From Flavobacteriales bacterium (GTDB taxonomy: Bacteria > Bacteroidota > Bacteroidia > Flavobacteriales > Flavobacteriaceae): DNA of 64,000 bases. Positions 1,211 through 7,962 of this stretch are shown here, piece by piece (the stretch's first letter is position 1; each line of letters starts with the position of its first letter). A program made the translations under genes and the position numbers. The notes under the pieces were generated by a model. It had not been told where the DNA came from and did not search any database. It saw only the letters and a program-made list of their open reading frames with translations. Where the stretch lies: assembly GCA_003331305.1 (NCBI GenBank), contig QOQB01000002.1, positions 1-64,000 on the forward strand, read 5' to 3'.

Positions 1211-1720
1211 CTATTTAGATTTTGAATACAAAGGGACAGAAGAGCAGGCTTCGCCATATGATAGTTTTCGGACTTCAGGAATTAGTTTTGCCGCTAATAG
1301 ACCCATGGCTTGTTGCGGCACAGGCTTATTGGCACAGCCTTTAATCATCACCAAACCATTTTGGTAGGGCGTAATATCAAAATCATGTAGTTTTTCAATA
1401 AAAAGAAAACGTTCCAAATCATCAAGAGTACCCACTACTACAGTTTGCGTAACAGGGCTCAAATAACGTACCAAAAGTAATGTAGCCCATTGTGGAACCA
1501 GTATATCATCTGGGCAATGCACTGCTACAAAATGATCCTCATAAGATTTCCAATCGTGGTCTTGCAAACGCGCTCTAAACGACTGTTCACGCAACAACAC
1601 GCCATCGTCTAAAAAAGCGGTAATGGAAAGTAACGTACGGATTCCCTCTTCGTAAAATTCTTCTAAGTCAATTACTTGAAGGGTACTGTTTGCCACGCGA
1701 TTGACAATTTCTTTTGCCAT
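1211..1720 (-). CDS. DUF2480 family protein
   Basis: 169 residues, soluble, no signal peptide. The sequence MAKEIVNRVANSTLQVIDLE, the central DWKSYEDHFVAVHCPDD stretch and the cysteine-containing MIKGCANKPVPQQA match the DUF2480 family, which is restricted to Bacteroidota and typically sits in the suf gene neighbourhood. The function is unknown; two conserved-looking cysteines (VHC and KGC) could bind metal, but that is inference. It overlaps the DUF59 gene upstream by one base (stop of one, start of the other), which indicates translational coupling within the suf operon. Confidence 0.8.
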   Translation of the reverse strand: MAKEIVNRVANSTLQVIDLEEFYEEGIRTLLSITAFLDDGVLLREQSFRARLQDHDWKSYEDHFVAVHCPDDILVPQWATLLLVRYLSPVTQTVVVGTLDDLERFLFIEKLHDFDITPYQNGLVMIKGCANKPVPQQAMGLLAAKLIPEVRKLSYGEACSSVPLYSKSK

Positions 1721-2034
1721 TATAAAAATCCGAGTTCAAGTTTTGCTTCTTCGCTCATTAGGTCGCGCGTCCATGGTGGGTCAAAAGTAAGTTCCAACTC
1801 TACTTCGTTTACCTCGTCCAAAGACCGTACTTTTTCTTTTACTTCTTGTGGAAGGGATTCTGCCACAGGACAATTGGGCGTTGTAAGGGTCATGAGTATT
1901 TTTACATCGCTGTCTTCATTGACAAACACATCGTAAATCAGACCCAATTCGTAAATATCTACAGGAATTTCAGGGTCGTAAATAGTTTTTAAGACCTTAA
2001 CAATTTTTTCCCCAAGTGCAGCAGTATCCATCAT
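1720..2034 (-). CDS. sufT: SufT-like DUF59/MIP18 iron-sulfur assembly protein
   Basis: 104 residues. The DUF59 (MIP18) signature is clear: YDPEIPVDIYELGLIYDV at residues 19-36 and MTLTTPNCPVAESLP with the conserved Cys55, followed by LTFDPPWTRDLMSEEAKLELG. Proteins of this family act as auxiliary factors in iron-sulfur cluster maturation or transfer to client proteins. Placement directly after sufE, with a 4-base overlap (2031-2034), supports a role in the SUF pathway. Two adjacent methionines could start translation; the first gives the ATGA-type overlap with sufE. The symbol sufT is used in the sense of a stand-alone DUF59 protein encoded in a suf operon. Confidence 0.85.
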   Translation of the reverse strand: MMDTAALGEKIVKVLKTIYDPEIPVDIYELGLIYDVFVNEDSDVKILMTLTTPNCPVAESLPQEVKEKVRSLDEVNEVELELTFDPPWTRDLMSEEAKLELGFL

Positions 2035-2456
2035 GATGTAAGTTGCGTTTGGTACGCTATGGCGTACATTTTTAATTGCTTAATCATGGAAACCAGGCCG
2101 TTTGCCCGTGTAGGCGAAAGATGTTCTTTAAGTCCAATTTCATCAATAAATGCAGTGTCAGCAGCTAATATATCTTTGGGATGTTGATTAGAAAATACGC
2201 GAATAAGAATAGCAATAATCCCTTTTGTGATGATGGCATCGCTATCGGCAGTAAATGCGATCTTATTGTTATCAAGGTCAGCATGTACCCAAACTTTACT
2301 CTGGCAACCTTTAATAATGTGGTCGTCTGTTTTGTATTCGGAAGCAATTAACGGTAACGATTTTCCAAGTTCAATCATATACTCATAGCGCTGCATCCAG
2401 TCGTCAAACATGGCAAATTCAGATACAATTTCTGCTTGTTGTGCTGCTATATTCAT
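2031..2456 (-). CDS. sufE: SufE cysteine desulfuration protein
   Basis: 141 residues from the ATG at 2456. An upstream in-frame start at 2501 would add 15 residues reaching into sufS and is not supported by family length. MFDDWMQRYEYMIELGKSLP and DHIIKGCQSKVW are hallmark SufE motifs; Cys51 is the persulfide acceptor and falls at the same number as in the enterobacterial enzyme. SufE takes sulfane sulfur from SufS Cys369 and passes it to the SufBCD scaffold. It lies 16 bases downstream of the sufS stop and overlaps the DUF59 gene by 4 bases. Confidence 0.93.
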   Translation of the reverse strand: MNIAAQQAEIVSEFAMFDDWMQRYEYMIELGKSLPLIASEYKTDDHIIKGCQSKVWVHADLDNNKIAFTADSDAIITKGIIAILIRVFSNQHPKDILAADTAFIDEIGLKEHLSPTRANGLVSMIKQLKMYAIAYQTQLTS

Positions 2457-2472
2457 AGGATAAAGATACGGA

Positions 2473-3708
2473 TTAACGCAACATACTAACTGCTTTTTCA
2501 ACGCCAGTTATAAATCGCTCTACTTCTTCATGGGTGTTGTAAAAGGCAAACGAAGCGCGCACCGTTCCTGGAATTTGATAAAAATCCATAATCGGTTGGC
2601 AGCAATGATGCCCTGTCCTTACGGCAATTCCCATTTTGTCAAGGAGCGTTCCTATATCGTAAGGATGTAATCCATCTACATTAAATGAAATTACGGCTAC
2701 TTTGTTTTGCACATCACCATAAATACGCAGGCCTTCAATTTTGTTTAGCTTTTCTGTGGCGTGCTGTAGTAAGTCGTTTTCGTGGGCTGCAATAGTTTCA
2801 AAGCCAATACCGTTCATATAATCTATAGCAGCACCAAAGCCTACCCCACCCGCAATGTTGGGTGTCCCGGCTTCAAATTTATGTGGCAGATCGGCATAGG
2901 TTGTTTTTTCAAAGGTTACTTGGTCTATCATTTCACCACCTCCTTGATAGGGTGGAAGTTTGCGTAGCCATTCTTCTTTGCCGTAAAGCATACCAATTCC
3001 TGTTGGACCACAGATTTTATGTGCAGATGTAGTATAAAAATCCGCATTCAGCGCTTGCACATCGGGAATCAAATGCGGCGTAGCTTGTGCACCATCAATG
3101 AGCACTGCTGCCCCAACCGCATGGGCTTTTTCGATAATCTGCTCAATGGGATTAATAACGCCTAATGCATTGGAAACGTGATTCACAAAAACCACTTTGG
3201 TATGTGCGTTAACAAGTTGGTCAAAGGCGTCCATATCTAAGATTCCCGCGTCTGTCATTGGAATAACCTTGAGCGTTGCGCCAGTGCGCTGACAAAGCAT
3301 TTGCCACGGTACAATATTAGCGTGATGTTCTAACGCAGATACAATGAGTTCATCTCCTTGTTTTAGCAATGATGCAAATCCATTTGCTACTAAATTAATA
3401 GCATGGGTAGTTCCCGAAGTTAAAATAATTTCGTGCGCATGCTTGGCATTAAAATGCTGCTGAATTTTTTGTCTTGCGGCCTCGTACTGATCTGTAGCTT
3501 CTTGGCTTAATGCATGTACGCCCCTGTGAATATTGGCATTGGTGTGCTTGTAATAATTACTAATAGCATCAATTACGGGTAGGGGTGTTTGGGATGTTGC
3601 AGCATTATCCAAATACACCAGTGGCTGTCCATTTACCTTTCGATGTAATATGGGAAAGTCATTTCTAATTTGCACTAAATCAAGGGAGGTATCAAACATC
3701 AAATCCAA
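2473..3708 (-). CDS. sufS: Cysteine desulfurase SufS
   Basis: 411 residues, the normal length for a type II (SufS/CsdA) cysteine desulfurase. It is a PLP enzyme that converts L-cysteine to alanine and carries the sulfur as a persulfide. YLDNAATSQTP (32-42), ALEHHANIVPW (125-135), the PLP lysine Lys231 in TTSAHKICGPTG, and the catalytic Cys369 in RTGHHCCQP are all present; the doubled cysteine is a minor oddity. The ORF starts MDLM, overlapping sufD by 17 bases; a second start at Met4 would reduce this to 8. It passes sulfur to SufE, encoded immediately downstream. Confidence 0.95.
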   Translation of the reverse strand: MDLMFDTSLDLVQIRNDFPILHRKVNGQPLVYLDNAATSQTPLPVIDAISNYYKHTNANIHRGVHALSQEATDQYEAARQKIQQHFNAKHAHEIILTSGTTHAINLVANGFASLLKQGDELIVSALEHHANIVPWQMLCQRTGATLKVIPMTDAGILDMDAFDQLVNAHTKVVFVNHVSNALGVINPIEQIIEKAHAVGAAVLIDGAQATPHLIPDVQALNADFYTTSAHKICGPTGIGMLYGKEEWLRKLPPYQGGGEMIDQVTFEKTTYADLPHKFEAGTPNIAGGVGFGAAIDYMNGIGFETIAAHENDLLQHATEKLNKIEGLRIYGDVQNKVAVISFNVDGLHPYDIGTLLDKMGIAVRTGHHCCQPIMDFYQIPGTVRASFAFYNTHEEVERFITGVEKAVSMLR

Positions 3709-5008
3709 TATTTACACCCAACTTATTGGCAATTAACTTATTGATACGTTTTTTCACCGAATCAATCTGAACACTTTGTAAGATATTATTGGCAAAGGCA
3801 TAGGTCAATAATCCGCGCGCTTCTTTTTTGGGAATACCGCGAGTTTGCAAATAGAATAATGCATCTTCATCCAATTGACCAATCGTACACCCGTGGCTGC
3901 ACTTTACATCGTCTGCAAAAATTTCAAGCTGTGGTTTGGTATTGATGCTTGCCTTGTCGTCCATCAAAATATTATTGTTTTGCTGAAAGGCATTTGTTTT
4001 TTGAGCTTCTTTTTCAACAATGATTTTTCCATTGAAAACACCTGTTGCATTTTCAGCATATATGCCTTTGTAATCCTGATGACTTTCGCTGTTGGGCTGC
4101 GCGTGATGCACTAGTGTGTGATGATCTACAAATTGCTTCCCTTCAATGAGTGTAATGCCCTTCATCGTAGAATTGATTTCGGGTTCCTTGTGATAGAAAT
4201 TTAGGTTGTTACGAGTAAGCTTACCACCAAATGAAAACGTATGTACTTTAGCATGGCTGTGTTTTTGCTGAGCAATATAAGTGCTGTCTATTAGTGATGC
4301 TTCGAAGTTGTCGTTTTGGATTTTGTAGTAATCCAATTGCGCGTTTTGTTCCGTAAATATCTCAGTAACCACGTTGGTAAACGTAGCCTCAGATGTCAAG
4401 CTTTGGTGACGTTCTACAATTTGTATTTCAGCATTTTTCTCCAACACAATCAAATTGCGAGGTTGCAAAATCATGTTAGGATTTTTATCGGTGGCAAAAT
4501 GAATAATTTGAACAGGTTTTTCTACAACCTTACCTTCAGGGACATAAATGTATGCTCCTTCTTTGGTAAAGGCTGTATTCAGCGCTGTTAATGACGCTTC
4601 CTTTTCGGCAATTTGATTAAAGTATTTTTTAATTACTGGAGCAAATTTTCGTTTCGTCAGTGCAGCCGACAACAAGCAAACGTCTATGCCGTCGTGCGTG
4701 GTTTCAGATAAATACGCATTGTAAATACCATCTACAAATACAATTTTGAAGGTGTCAACGTCCTGTAAAATGTACGGCTTAACCTCTTCAAGTTTAAGAT
4801 TAACTTCCTCTTTTGGAAACACTGAAAAATCATTTTTTGTAAGCGTTCTAAGTGACGTATATTTCCAATCCTCTAGTTTTTTTGTGGGAAAACCTTGTTG
4901 TTCAAATACTTCAATGGCAGCGGCGCGTTCGTCTTGTAACTTACGTTGTGGGCCGTCTTGAGCATCAAATGCCAAATACGAAGACAATAAGGTTTCTTTT
5001 AAGTCCAT
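3692..5008 (-). CDS. sufD: Fe-S assembly scaffold subunit SufD
   Basis: 438 residues of the SufB/SufD family. The N-terminal helical part (PTKKLEDWKYTSLRTL, about 40-55) is the usual substrate-proximal region and the C-terminal half is the right-handed beta-helix with KGIYAENATGVFNGKIIV and DDVKCSHGCTIGQLDEDALFYLQTRGI, the strongly conserved SufD end. With SufB and SufC it forms the SufBC2D complex that builds clusters. The start codon shares one base with the sufC stop (5008), a tight coupling typical of an operon. The protein is acidic and soluble with no signal. Confidence 0.95.
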   Translation of the reverse strand: MDLKETLLSSYLAFDAQDGPQRKLQDERAAAIEVFEQQGFPTKKLEDWKYTSLRTLTKNDFSVFPKEEVNLKLEEVKPYILQDVDTFKIVFVDGIYNAYLSETTHDGIDVCLLSAALTKRKFAPVIKKYFNQIAEKEASLTALNTAFTKEGAYIYVPEGKVVEKPVQIIHFATDKNPNMILQPRNLIVLEKNAEIQIVERHQSLTSEATFTNVVTEIFTEQNAQLDYYKIQNDNFEASLIDSTYIAQQKHSHAKVHTFSFGGKLTRNNLNFYHKEPEINSTMKGITLIEGKQFVDHHTLVHHAQPNSESHQDYKGIYAENATGVFNGKIIVEKEAQKTNAFQQNNNILMDDKASINTKPQLEIFADDVKCSHGCTIGQLDEDALFYLQTRGIPKKEARGLLTYAFANNILQSVQIDSVKKRINKLIANKLGVNIGFDV

Positions 5009-5754
5009 TATGCTCCTTGTTTAATCCAGTCGTAGCCTTTTTCTTCAAGTTCCAGCGCCAATTCTTTGGTGCCTGATTTTACAATTCTACCTTCGTGTAA
5101 TACATGAACAAAATCAGGAACAATATGGTCCAACAATCGCTGGTAATGCGTTATAACTACAATAGCGTTATCTTTTCCTTTAAGCTTATTTACGCCGTTT
5201 GCCACAATGCGTAGCGCGTCAATATCAAGTCCAGAGTCCGTTTCATCTAAAATGGCAAGTTTGGGTTCAAGCATTGCCATTTGAAAAATTTCATTTCGCT
5301 TTTTTTCACCTCCCGAAAAGCCTTCGTTAAGGGAGCGCGATAAAAACCGTGAATCAATTTCTAAAAGGGCAGCTTTTTCACGAATTTTCTTTAGCATTTC
5401 GTTCGCAGGCATATCGTCAAGCCCTTGTGCTTTACGGTTTTGGTTGATAGCCGTTTTGATAAAATTAGTGACCGATACCCCAGGGATTTCTACAGGATAT
5501 TGAAATGATAAAAAGATTCCTTTATGGGCACGTTCGTCTGCGCTAAGTTCTTCAATATCTTCACCGTCAAATAAAATACTTCCTTGTGAAACGTCGTATT
5601 CCTCGTGTCCAGCAATTACCGTTGAAAGCGTGCTTTTACCAGAACCATTAGGCCCCATAATGGCATGAACCTCACCAGGTTTTACGTCTAAATTTATTCC
5701 TTGAAGAATCGTTTTGCCTTCGCAACCGGCATGTAAATTGTCAATGCTGAGCAT
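5008..5754 (-). CDS. sufC: Fe-S assembly ATPase SufC
   Basis: 248 residues, an ABC-type ATPase without membrane partner. Walker A GPNGSGKST at 34-42, Q-loop in FLSFQYPVEIPGV, the SufC-type signature FSGGEKKR (146-153) and Walker B LAILDETDSGLD (167-178) are intact, with the H-loop in VVITHYQRLL. It drives conformational change in SufB-SufD during cluster assembly. It begins 3 bases after the small lipoprotein gene and its stop meets the sufD start. No missing residues. Confidence 0.96.
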   Translation of the reverse strand: MLSIDNLHAGCEGKTILQGINLDVKPGEVHAIMGPNGSGKSTLSTVIAGHEEYDVSQGSILFDGEDIEELSADERAHKGIFLSFQYPVEIPGVSVTNFIKTAINQNRKAQGLDDMPANEMLKKIREKAALLEIDSRFLSRSLNEGFSGGEKKRNEIFQMAMLEPKLAILDETDSGLDIDALRIVANGVNKLKGKDNAIVVITHYQRLLDHIVPDFVHVLHEGRIVKSGTKELALELEEKGYDWIKQGA

Positions 5755-5757
5755 GAG

Positions 5758-6111
5758 TTAGTTGGGTTTGAGAATAGTATTATCTGAAGGATTCACTAAT
5801 GAATCTATTGATGTGATTTTAATGCGTTTGTCCCAACCTTCTTCGTCGGGTTGTTTGTTTTCTACCATTCCCTTAACATAAACGGGAATCATATCGTATT
5901 CGTCGCGCTTTATTGGGCTACAGAGCTCTTGCAACTCTAGCATTTTATCGTCGATAATAACCCCATAAATTTCAGTACCTGTATTTAGCACTGCAGCATC
6001 TGCTAAATATAAAAACTCACCGTAAAATTGTGGATTTGCATCTGTTTTTTTTGGCGATTGAGTACATGATGTCGCAAAAGCGATAAGTGTAATAAAAATT
6101 AATGTTCTCAT
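5758..6111 (-). CDS. Small lipoprotein encoded inside the suf operon (NlpE OB-fold-like)
   Basis: 117 residues. MRTLIFITLIAFATSC is a lipoprotein signal peptide with the acylated cysteine at 16. The mature domain of about 100 residues contains YGEFLYLADAAVLNTG, EIYGVIIDDKM and DMIPVYVKGMVE, a strand pattern that resembles the C-terminal OB-fold domain of the copper/envelope-stress lipoprotein NlpE (which has a GEYVYMADAA-like segment); this resemblance is from memory and not a search. The gene sits between sufB (10 bases upstream) and sufC (3 bases downstream), so it must be co-transcribed with cytosolic iron-sulfur machinery although the product is exported. Function unknown. Confidence 0.65.
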   Translation of the reverse strand: MRTLIFITLIAFATSCTQSPKKTDANPQFYGEFLYLADAAVLNTGTEIYGVIIDDKMLELQELCSPIKRDEYDMIPVYVKGMVENKQPDEEGWDKRIKITSIDSLVNPSDNTILKPN

Positions 6112-6121
6112 GACTTAGGAT

Positions 6122-7567
6122 TTATCCAACAGAGCCTTCAAGTGAAATTTCAAGTAGTTTTTGAGCTTCCACTGCAAACTCCATGGGTAGTTTATTCAAC
6201 ACTTCTTTACTAAAACCATTCACGATAAGTGCAATGGCTTTTTCGGTATCAATTCCTCGTTGATTACAATAAAAAATTTGGTCTTCACCAATTTTACTGG
6301 TGGTAGCTTCATGCTCAATTTTGGCAGTTTTGCTTTTTGCTTCAATATATGGGAAGGTGTGCGCGCCACATTTGTTCCCCATAAGGAGCGAGTCGCATTG
6401 CGAAAAGTTACGTGCATTTTTGGCATTAGCACCTACTTTTACCAGTCCGCGGTAGCTGTTTTGTGAGTGTCCAGCAGAAATTCCTTTGGAAATGATGGTA
6501 CTCTTGGTACGTTTCCCCAAATGAATCATTTTAGTCCCTGTATCGGCTTGCTGATAATTGTTGGTTAGTGCAATGGAATAAAACTCCCCAATACTATCGT
6601 TGCCTTTCAAAATACAAGACGGATATTTCCAGGTAACGGCAGAGCCTGTTTCGACTTGCGTCCACGAAATTTTAGAGCGTTCATGGCAAATACCACGTTT
6701 GGTTACAAAATTAAAAACCCCTCCTTTTCCGTCTTTGTCGCCTGGAAACCAGTTTTGAACGGTAGAGTATTTGATTTCAGCGTCGTCAAGCGCAATGAGC
6801 TCTACTACCGCCGCATGCAGCTGATTTTCATCTCGAGCAGGTGCGGTACACCCCTCCAAATAACTCACGTAACTGCCTTCGTCCGCAATCACTAATGTGC
6901 GCTCAAACTGCCCTGTTCCTGCTTGATTAATGCGGAAATAGGTAGAAAGTTCCATAGGACAATGCACCCCTTTGGGAATGTAGCAAAATGATCCGTCGGA
7001 AAATACAGCCGAATTTAAAGCCGCAAAATAGTTGTCCGTTCTAGGAATGACGGAGCCGATGTATTTTTGGACCAATTCGGGGTGTTCTTGAATGGCTTCT
7101 GAAATAGAACAGAAAATAATGCCTTTTTCAGCTAAGGTATCTTTGAACGTGGTGGCTACCGAAACAGAGTCCATCACAATATCAACAGCAACACCAGCTA
7201 ATTTTTTTTGTTCTTCGAGTGAAATACCTAGTTTTTCAAAAGTTTTAAGCAACTCAGGATCAACCTCGTCGAGGCTGTCGTATTTCACTTGTGACTTGGG
7301 CGCAGAATAGTAAGCGATTTCTTGCAACTTAGGTTTGGGATACGTTACGTTTGCCCAATCGGGCTCTTCCATTTGTTGGAATTTTTCATAGGCATCTAGC
7401 CGCCATTTAAGCATCCAATGTGGCTCGTTTTTACGCGCAGATATAGCACGAATAACATCTTCGTTTAATCCAATGGGGAACGTATCCGATTCAATATCGG
7501 TGTAAAAACCATACTCGTACTCTTTGGTTTCGAGTTCTTTTTTTAATTCCTCTTCTGTGTATGCCAT
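6122..7567 (-). CDS. sufB: Fe-S assembly scaffold subunit SufB
   Basis: 481 residues, full length. Recognisable SufB segments include [18 protein letters not shown] (about 47-64), [38 protein letters not shown] and the C-terminal [20 protein letters not shown] plus [20 protein letters not shown], which carry the cysteine and glutamate residues implicated in cluster building. SufB is the scaffold on which the nascent [4Fe-4S] cluster forms in the SufBC2D complex. It follows sufA by 9 bases in the operon. Confidence 0.96.
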
Positions 7568-7576
7568 AGCATTTTT

Positions 7577-7906
7577 TTAAAGCGAAAAACTTTCTCCACA
7601 CCCGCAGGTTCTGTTGGCGTTGGGATTGTTAAATACAAATCCTTTGCCGTTTAAACCTCCTGAATACTCAAGGGTAGTTCCAACAAGATACAAAAAGCTT
7701 TTTTTATCTACGACAATCCGCACTTCATTATCTTCAAAAATCTTGTCATTTTCACCCAAAGCTTCATCAAATGTTAGTTCATAGGACAAGCCCGAGCATC
7801 CACCACTCTTGACACCAACGCGCACAAAATGTGACTGCGAATCAACGCCGTCTTGTTGCATCATCTGCACCACTTGGTCTCGTGCTTCCGGAGAAACTTT
7901 AATCAT
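7577..7906 (-). CDS. sufA: A-type Fe-S carrier SufA/IscA family
   Basis: 109 residues from the ATG at 7906. The three A-type ligands are present: Cys37 in KSGGCSGLSYEL and Cys101/Cys103 in TCGCGESFSL. A-type proteins accept clusters from the scaffold and deliver them to apo-proteins. An in-frame start at 7945 would add 13 residues, but it would lie inside the promoter-like TATATTTG element at 7934-7941, and the family normally begins MIKVSPEA, so 7906 is preferred. First gene of the suf operon. Confidence 0.92.
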   Translation of the reverse strand: MIKVSPEARDQVVQMMQQDGVDSQSHFVRVGVKSGGCSGLSYELTFDEALGENDKIFEDNEVRIVVDKKSFLYLVGTTLEYSGGLNGKGFVFNNPNANRTCGCGESFSL

Positions 7907-7933: not shown

Positions 7934-7962
7934 CAAATATACCACATTTCACGATGATACAA
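7934..7962 (-). promoter_or_regulatory. suf operon promoter
   Basis: On the minus strand there is TTG (7960-7962), an 18-base spacer and TATATTTG (7934-7941), matching the Bacteroidota primary sigma consensus (TTTG or TTG, about 19 bases, TAnnTTTG). Transcription would start near 7928, leaving roughly 20 bases of leader before the sufA ATG at 7906. No obvious Fur or IscR/SufR-like palindrome was recognised beside it. Confidence 0.6.

Follow-up and report, generated by a model that had tools for sequence, protein, structure and literature searches.

A lipoprotein gene with an NlpE OB-like domain is confirmed inside the suf operon of a flavobacterium, and across its family this NlpE_C-like SUF-linked lipoprotein gene (hereafter LP) keeps one position, at the junction between sufB and sufC. 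A second, unrelated family of exported lipoproteins, lactonase-like in sequence, is found at the same junction, and one or both families stand at 154 of the 241 junctions that could be resolved. The fixed place of LP at sufB-sufC is more than chance, as judged from its position in 137/137 copies and from its dN/dS ratios.

The window, the whole 64,000-nucleotide stretch of contig QOQB01000002.1 analysed here, carries on its minus strand the close-packed genes sufA-sufB-LP-sufC-sufD-sufS-sufE together with a FeS_assembly_P gene (Table 1). Pfam identified the neighbours of LP as SufB and SufD (SUFBD_core), SufC (ABC_tran), SufS, SufE, SufA and FeS_assembly_P, the last of which is presumably SufT-like. 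LP itself opens at an ATG and lies 10 bases from sufB (end 6122) and 3 bases from sufC (start 5754), the spacing that the preliminary description had given for a lipoprotein between these two genes and with which the ORF coordinates agree. The sufA ORF opens at a GTG at 7945; translation more likely begins at the ATG at 7906. Just upstream of sufA stands a candidate promoter, TTG-N18-TATATTTG, which by its motif may resemble the housekeeping promoter of Bacteroidota.

Table 1. The suf region of the window, and the junction loci that hold a lactonase-like gene
Feature	Position	Strand	Basis
LP, 117 aa	5758..6111	-	ORF; A1 and A2 alignments; genome census
LP signal peptide and lipobox, predicted lipidated Cys16 (codons 1-16)	6064..6111	-	Sequence; Cys aligned in 137/137
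LP predicted OB-fold domain, residues 28-106	5794..6030	-	AlphaFold2 model; fold match to NlpE C-terminal domain
sufB	6122..7567	-	Pfam SUFBD_core 6.7e-79
sufC	5008..5754	-	Pfam ABC_tran; conserved place between SufB and SufD
sufD	3692..5008	-	Pfam SUFBD_core 7.4e-86
sufS, cysteine desulfurase	2473..3708	-	Pfam Aminotran_5
sufE	2031..2501	-	Pfam SufE
FeS_assembly_P protein	1720..2034	-	Pfam PF01883
sufA	7577..7906	-	Pfam Fe-S_biosyn on 7577-7903
Promoter-like TTG-N18-TATATTTG, upstream of sufA	7934..7962	-	Motif by sequence
Junction loci with lactonase-like gene (1): L045, L070, L071, L082, L084-L086, L092, L097, L100, L102, L107			
Junction loci with lactonase-like gene (2): L116, L123, L156, L157, L165, L186, L199, L200, L207, L219, L221, L282			

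A protein search of 60 genomes found LP in the window's own genome, in 14 of 16 congeners (small and incomplete genomes) and, among the remaining genera of the family, in 11 of 20, but in none of 23 genomes from other families of the order Flavobacteriales. The larger census covered 249 Flavobacteriaceae genomes, own included, and identified 137 carriers at E 6.4e-19 or better; a further nine, whose matches were all weak (E 4.5e-5 to 9.1e-4), were scored as lacking LP, and among the matches listed five of these nine span profile positions 1 to 38-51, that is, the signal-peptide end. Gene surroundings were inspected for all carriers and for the 109 of the 112 remaining genomes that had a SufB match. 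LP lies downstream of sufB in all 137 carriers, with sufC beyond it in 136 and a contig end in one. The arrangements are sufB-LP-sufC in 129 genomes (where the median spacing is 14 bases on the sufB side and 3 on the sufC side), sufB-lactonase-LP-sufC in six, sufB-LP-lactonase-sufC in one and sufB-LP at a contig end in one; among genomes without LP, 17 have sufB-lactonase-sufC, 87 have sufB-sufC with neither gene, five have sufB without sufC in the DNA retrieved around it, and three have no sufB match. At 104 of the 241 junctions that were resolved LP is thus missing, and SUF therefore works without it. The preliminary description had called for a survey of flavobacterial suf operons and would have been refuted by presence in this species only; the survey found LP well beyond one species.

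Searching a sample of the order with the A2 alignment gave matches in seven of 246 genomes, own included and all of them Flavobacteriaceae; this sample is weighted to few genera (82 in 246), and with about 17 candidates scored per genome a very diverged copy could escape. In a sample of the class, four of 247 genomes matched. Two of these lie outside the family and are weak (E 2.3e-7 and 8.8e-7, over 78-82 N-terminal profile positions); both are lipoproteins, 199 and 328 aa long, the DNA retrieved around them holds no suf gene, and we judge them to belong to another family. Among the 23 genomes from other families of the order, 22 have sufB and 20 also show sufC; 18 of those 20 junctions are free of any ORF of at least 70 aa, and the other two hold an ORF that, by eye, lacks an evident signal peptide.

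Within Flavobacteriaceae, the 87 junctions with neither lipoprotein family include 82 without an intervening ORF of at least 70 aa, three with a 23S_rRNA_IVP gene (L069:2973-3200, L128:1506-1880 and L129:1479-1832) and two with another lipoprotein, of 127 aa. The latter occurs in two genomes of one genus (L118:2962-3345 in G276, and L281 in G019); it falls into no clear family, the best Pfam match, for the L118 copy, having E 0.027, under the cut-off, and to the eye it could be an OB lipoprotein that has diverged strongly.

The distribution of LP largely follows the phylogeny of its operon. On a FastTree phylogeny of SufB and SufC from 237 of the 249 genomes, from which unresolved junctions and SufB stretches below 380 aa had been dropped, LP requires 19 changes, against a mean of 77.5 and a minimum of 64 in 500 sets of shuffled labels; LP has therefore been mostly inherited, with losses or gains in particular lineages. 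In addition, LP distances track those of SufB (Mantel r 0.48, p 0.001, 134 genomes), although LP evolves far faster, with a median identity of 36% against 90% for SufB. Over 15 congener pairs, several of them with dS above 1, its dN/dS was 0.023-0.254, compared with 0.007-0.029 for SufC, and these ratios indicate that LP is under purifying selection.

The product is predicted to be exported. Its signal peptide ends in ATSC, within a lipobox ...FATSC that places the Cys at residue 16, and this Cys is aligned in 27/27 rows of A1, 45/45 rows of A2 and all 137 family carriers. By a custom rule, which requires a hydrophobic stretch and a small residue before the Cys and from which lipidation is predicted, all 137 copies have a signal peptide with a lipobox Cys, in keeping with the exported lipoprotein of the preliminary description. 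Lipoproteins of Bacteroidota that are exported to the cell surface are described as bearing a motif (LES) after this Cys, K-(D/E)2 or Q-A-(D/E)2 (PMC5080379). Just seven of the 137 LP copies have the motif, the window's copy not among them, and a periplasm-facing anchor is therefore the likelier place. By its motifs, then, LP appears to be an exported, lipid-anchored protein that more likely faces the periplasm.

The relationship to NlpE was examined by profile and by predicted fold. LP of the window matched Pfam NlpE_C (PF17185) with E 0.24 and 12.2 bits, below the curated cut-off of 22 bits, and an NCBIfam scan of it gave no match; alone, the Pfam score is a mere hint that becomes firm only with the relatives. 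NlpE_C matched 13 of the 27 aligned members in A1 (window LP included) at E<=1, with a best value of 1.3e-6, and 32 of the 45 more diverse representatives in A2 (window LP again included, from 46 picked) at the same threshold, with a best value of 1.8e-8; the next family matched 8 of 45. The NlpE OB-like sequence named in the preliminary description was thus recovered by profile search through the relatives of the window's protein. Conversely, searching the 60 genomes with the NlpE_C profile returned three matches, all above the cut-off and all LP; the 23 other LP carriers among the 26 in those genomes gave none at E<=0.001, nor did the LP carriers G000, G164, G193 and G212 of a phylum sample match NlpE_C. 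By this profile the family is therefore borderline. A profile comparison of LP with four NlpE_C proteins of other Bacteroidota gave E 2.1e-4 and a probability of 46%, and a PDB sequence search with the A1 profile returned three chance-level matches (E 0.084-0.46), none of them NlpE.

An AlphaFold2 model built from alignment A3 (the window and eleven loci) has a mean pLDDT of 84, with block means of at least 90 across residues 31 to 110. It shows the order strand-strand-strand-helix-strand-strand, with strands at 28-36, 39-43, 48-51, 75-85 and 95-106 and a helix at 55-67. In VIA-align, the top solved match was E. coli NlpE (2z4h_A, residues 114-209; Z 10.1, rmsd 3.5, 89 aligned), followed by 2z4i_A at Z 10.0, and the next entries were other OB proteins at Z 6.9 and lower. 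Foldseek placed NlpE chains at ranks 2, 4 and 6, with 2z4i_A second at E 0.025 and nothing below E 0.001. On this model, the predicted fold of LP is an OB fold of the NlpE C-terminal type.

The second occupant of the junction, the lactonase-like lipoprotein, is about 283-303 aa long (one ORF opens further upstream) and unrelated to LP. One member was scanned and matched Lactamase_B at 6.8e-17, and its best NCBIfam model was AttM-type acyl-homoserine lactonase (1.1e-30, under the cut-off); the solved relatives of the protein are mostly lactonases. At E<=1e-70, 25 of the 249 genomes carry the gene, 24 of them at the sufB-sufC junction, where it adjoins LP at seven sites. The lone copy elsewhere (L294:4860-5708) belongs to genome G035, which has LP at its sufB-sufC junction (L026). 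On the tree, the lactonase-like gene requires 22 changes for 24 carriers against 23.1 for shuffled labels and therefore comes and goes; its distances follow SufB (Mantel r 0.26, p 0.045, 24 genomes) more weakly than those of LP. In raw counts the two genes seem to avoid each other (both 7, LP only 126, lactonase only 17, neither 87; Fisher p 0.008). This avoidance vanishes in phylogenetically independent pairs, and mutual exclusion is therefore not claimed.

A published operon offers a counterpart to this second family. In Muricauda olearia Th120, momL is located between sufB and sufC, and its co-transcription with suf was inferred from similar qPCR levels (PMC5484670). According to the same source, indole raised momL nearly 7-fold with an iron chelator and 3-4-fold with H2O2, and its authors termed the momL-suf arrangement unreported elsewhere (PMC5484670). 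The case resembles LP in that a gene for an exported protein stands at sufB-sufC and is reported as co-transcribed with suf. MomL, however, is an acyl-homoserine lactonase unrelated to LP, and the word lipoprotein is absent from the main text of PMC5484670. Matched by place and family, the lactonase-like gene is probably the counterpart of MomL. Since such a gene stands at the junction in 24 of 249 genomes, the momL-suf operon is probably one case among several.

A further parallel comes from Riemerella anatipestifer: the locus tag of RAYM_06482, which its annotation names outer membrane lipoprotein nlpE, falls between those of SufB (06467) and SufD (06507) (PMC5609570). This nlpE-named gene, sufA, sufB and sufD appear in a table of genes raised in iron restriction, for which the text of the source gives a ratio of at least 2 and the entries start from about 1, in ambiguous units (PMC5609570). 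The main text of PMC5609570 mentions nlpE once, within that table, and RAYM_06482 is likened to LP by its name, its tag among the suf genes and its iron-table entry. In the same source the tag of a four helix bundle gene falls between those of sufA and sufB. Literature searches on suf operons with a lipoprotein or NlpE in Flavobacteria, Bacteroidetes or Riemerella, with subscription journals mostly outside their reach, found neither LP nor the general junction pattern among the papers listed.

NlpE_C domains also occur away from suf. In two Bacteroidota genomes, stand-alone NlpE_C lipoproteins (L291:1414-1779 and L292:1411-1791) resemble LP in having a single NlpE_C domain and a signal peptide with Cys. 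They differ from it in carrying two extra cysteines besides the lipid Cys and were not seen beside suf. Each directly follows a lolCE-like permease gene, at distances of 9 and 2 bases (TIGR02212 matches at E 1.3e-64 and 3.3e-67, under the cut-off); this neighbourhood is striking, given that lipoprotein transport is among the things that NlpE senses in E. coli. Another NlpE_C domain (42 bits) forms the N-terminal end of a 397-aa protein (L290:1372-2565), the remainder of which has, by eye, the look of a mechanosensitive channel.

How far does the likeness to E. coli NlpE (CutF) extend? LP shares with the C-terminal domain of that protein (2z4h, 2z4i; PF17185) the predicted OB fold, a predicted lipid anchor and, in its relatives, the NlpE_C matches; it differs in being suf-linked and in the parts that it lacks. 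The LP ORF holds the OB domain only, without the NlpE N-terminal domain, and the profile of the latter, PF04170, has no match in the window's genome (86% complete; the E. coli control was positive). In E. coli, copper and transport sensing are described as needing the N-terminal domain, and the C-terminal domain as implicated through its disulfide (PMC6593411). The cysteine pair of this disulfide is missing in 136 of 137 LP copies: besides the lipidated Cys, 128 copies have no Cys, eight have one, the window's LP included, and one has two. No His column of the LP alignment exceeds 34% and no Cys column other than the lipid Cys exceeds 10%. The CpxA sensor domain, CpxA_peri, was found in 0 of 40 genomes, with a positive E. 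coli control; another kinase could take its part. On these grounds copper or Cpx sensing was rejected as the main reading, and it is very improbable that LP senses envelope stress or copper in the manner of NlpE and signals to a kinase, even with the NlpE C-terminal fold and the NlpE_C matches in relatives to speak for it. The preliminary description had pointed to NlpE as a sensor of envelope and copper stress and had suggested a link between envelope metal stress and cluster repair. Its suf linkage stands and its copper component is not supported; by analogy, iron limitation and oxidative stress appear to be better-supported links than copper.

Could LP simply be a passenger? The sufB-sufC junction would then simply tolerate extra genes: the operon is well expressed, and unrelated genes would stay there for the sake of expression, with no functional tie to SUF. 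Several unrelated gene types do stand there (LP, the lactonase-like gene, 23S_rRNA_IVP genes in three genomes and the 127-aa lipoprotein in two), two of the 20 resolved junctions in other families hold the ORFs without an evident signal peptide, and the scatter of the lactonase-like gene on the tree is nearly random; the non-exported 23S_rRNA_IVP genes, at 3 of 87 junctions, mean that the spot tolerates passengers. Yet LP and the lactonase-like gene, which are exported but unrelated, hardly occur anywhere else in those genomes (137/137 and 24/25 at this junction), and LP is largely vertical and under purifying selection. Three of the four junction gene types are lipoproteins, a remark made without statistics that points the same way. 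We consider a passive passenger unlikely. It is quite unlikely that LP is a ligand-handling protein, its OB domain capturing iron, heme, sulfide or some cofactor on the periplasmic side and so helping to supply or protect the Fe-S pathway. The constant link to SUF and the conserved aromatic and acidic positions (Y49 96%, D73 96%, W93 99%) are consistent with such a role, but apart from the lipid Cys neither Cys nor His is conserved in LP, which therefore has no classical metal site, and because the family profile met no relative in the PDB, homology suggests no ligand. A direct accessory of SufBCD, with its mature domain retained in, or brought back to, the cytosol or with a nascent chain that tethers SUF translation to the membrane, is hardly credible. 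That LP sits among the genes of a single complex, almost without gaps, invites the idea; against it, the lipobox Cys is present in every copy, and a component of the SUF complex would be cytosolic and found in all suf operons, whereas LP bears an export signal and is missing from the 104 operons noted above.

The reading we prefer, and to which we give about an even chance, is that LP is a periplasm-facing NlpE_C-type lipoprotein co-expressed with SUF, the envelope arm of a response to iron and oxidative stress. The protein would consist of a single small OB domain of the NlpE_C type, held on the periplasmic side by its lipid anchor, and would work outside the SufBCD complex. We infer that LP is transcribed together with the suf genes, and its amount should therefore rise when SUF is needed, under iron limitation or oxidative stress; by analogy with the momL-suf operon and the Riemerella iron table, it may be produced alongside SUF when iron is limiting or peroxide is present. 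Its place of action would be the envelope, where its OB domain would most likely bind a partner protein or a small ligand. The fixed position, the mostly vertical inheritance, the purifying selection, the export signal and the predicted fold count for this reading; independent support comes from the other, unrelated family of exported lipoproteins, which 24 of 25 carriers hold at this junction, and from the momL and Riemerella cases. The junctions without LP, its faster evolution than SufB and the 23S_rRNA_IVP genes count against it. A bolder version, which we regard as unlikely, is that flavobacterial suf operons have an envelope slot at sufB-sufC, filled by exported lipoproteins of unrelated folds, and that LP is a sensor or adaptor coupling cytosolic iron and oxidative stress to the envelope, a circuit not described before.

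Fe-S assembly by SUF is usually seen as a cytosolic task. If the junction is kept for envelope lipoproteins, as its occupancy in more than half of the resolved cases may suggest, cluster assembly and the state of the envelope are probably managed together in these bacteria. The momL-suf case would then be part of a broader junction pattern, and LP would offer a small, testable handle on the link between SUF and the envelope.
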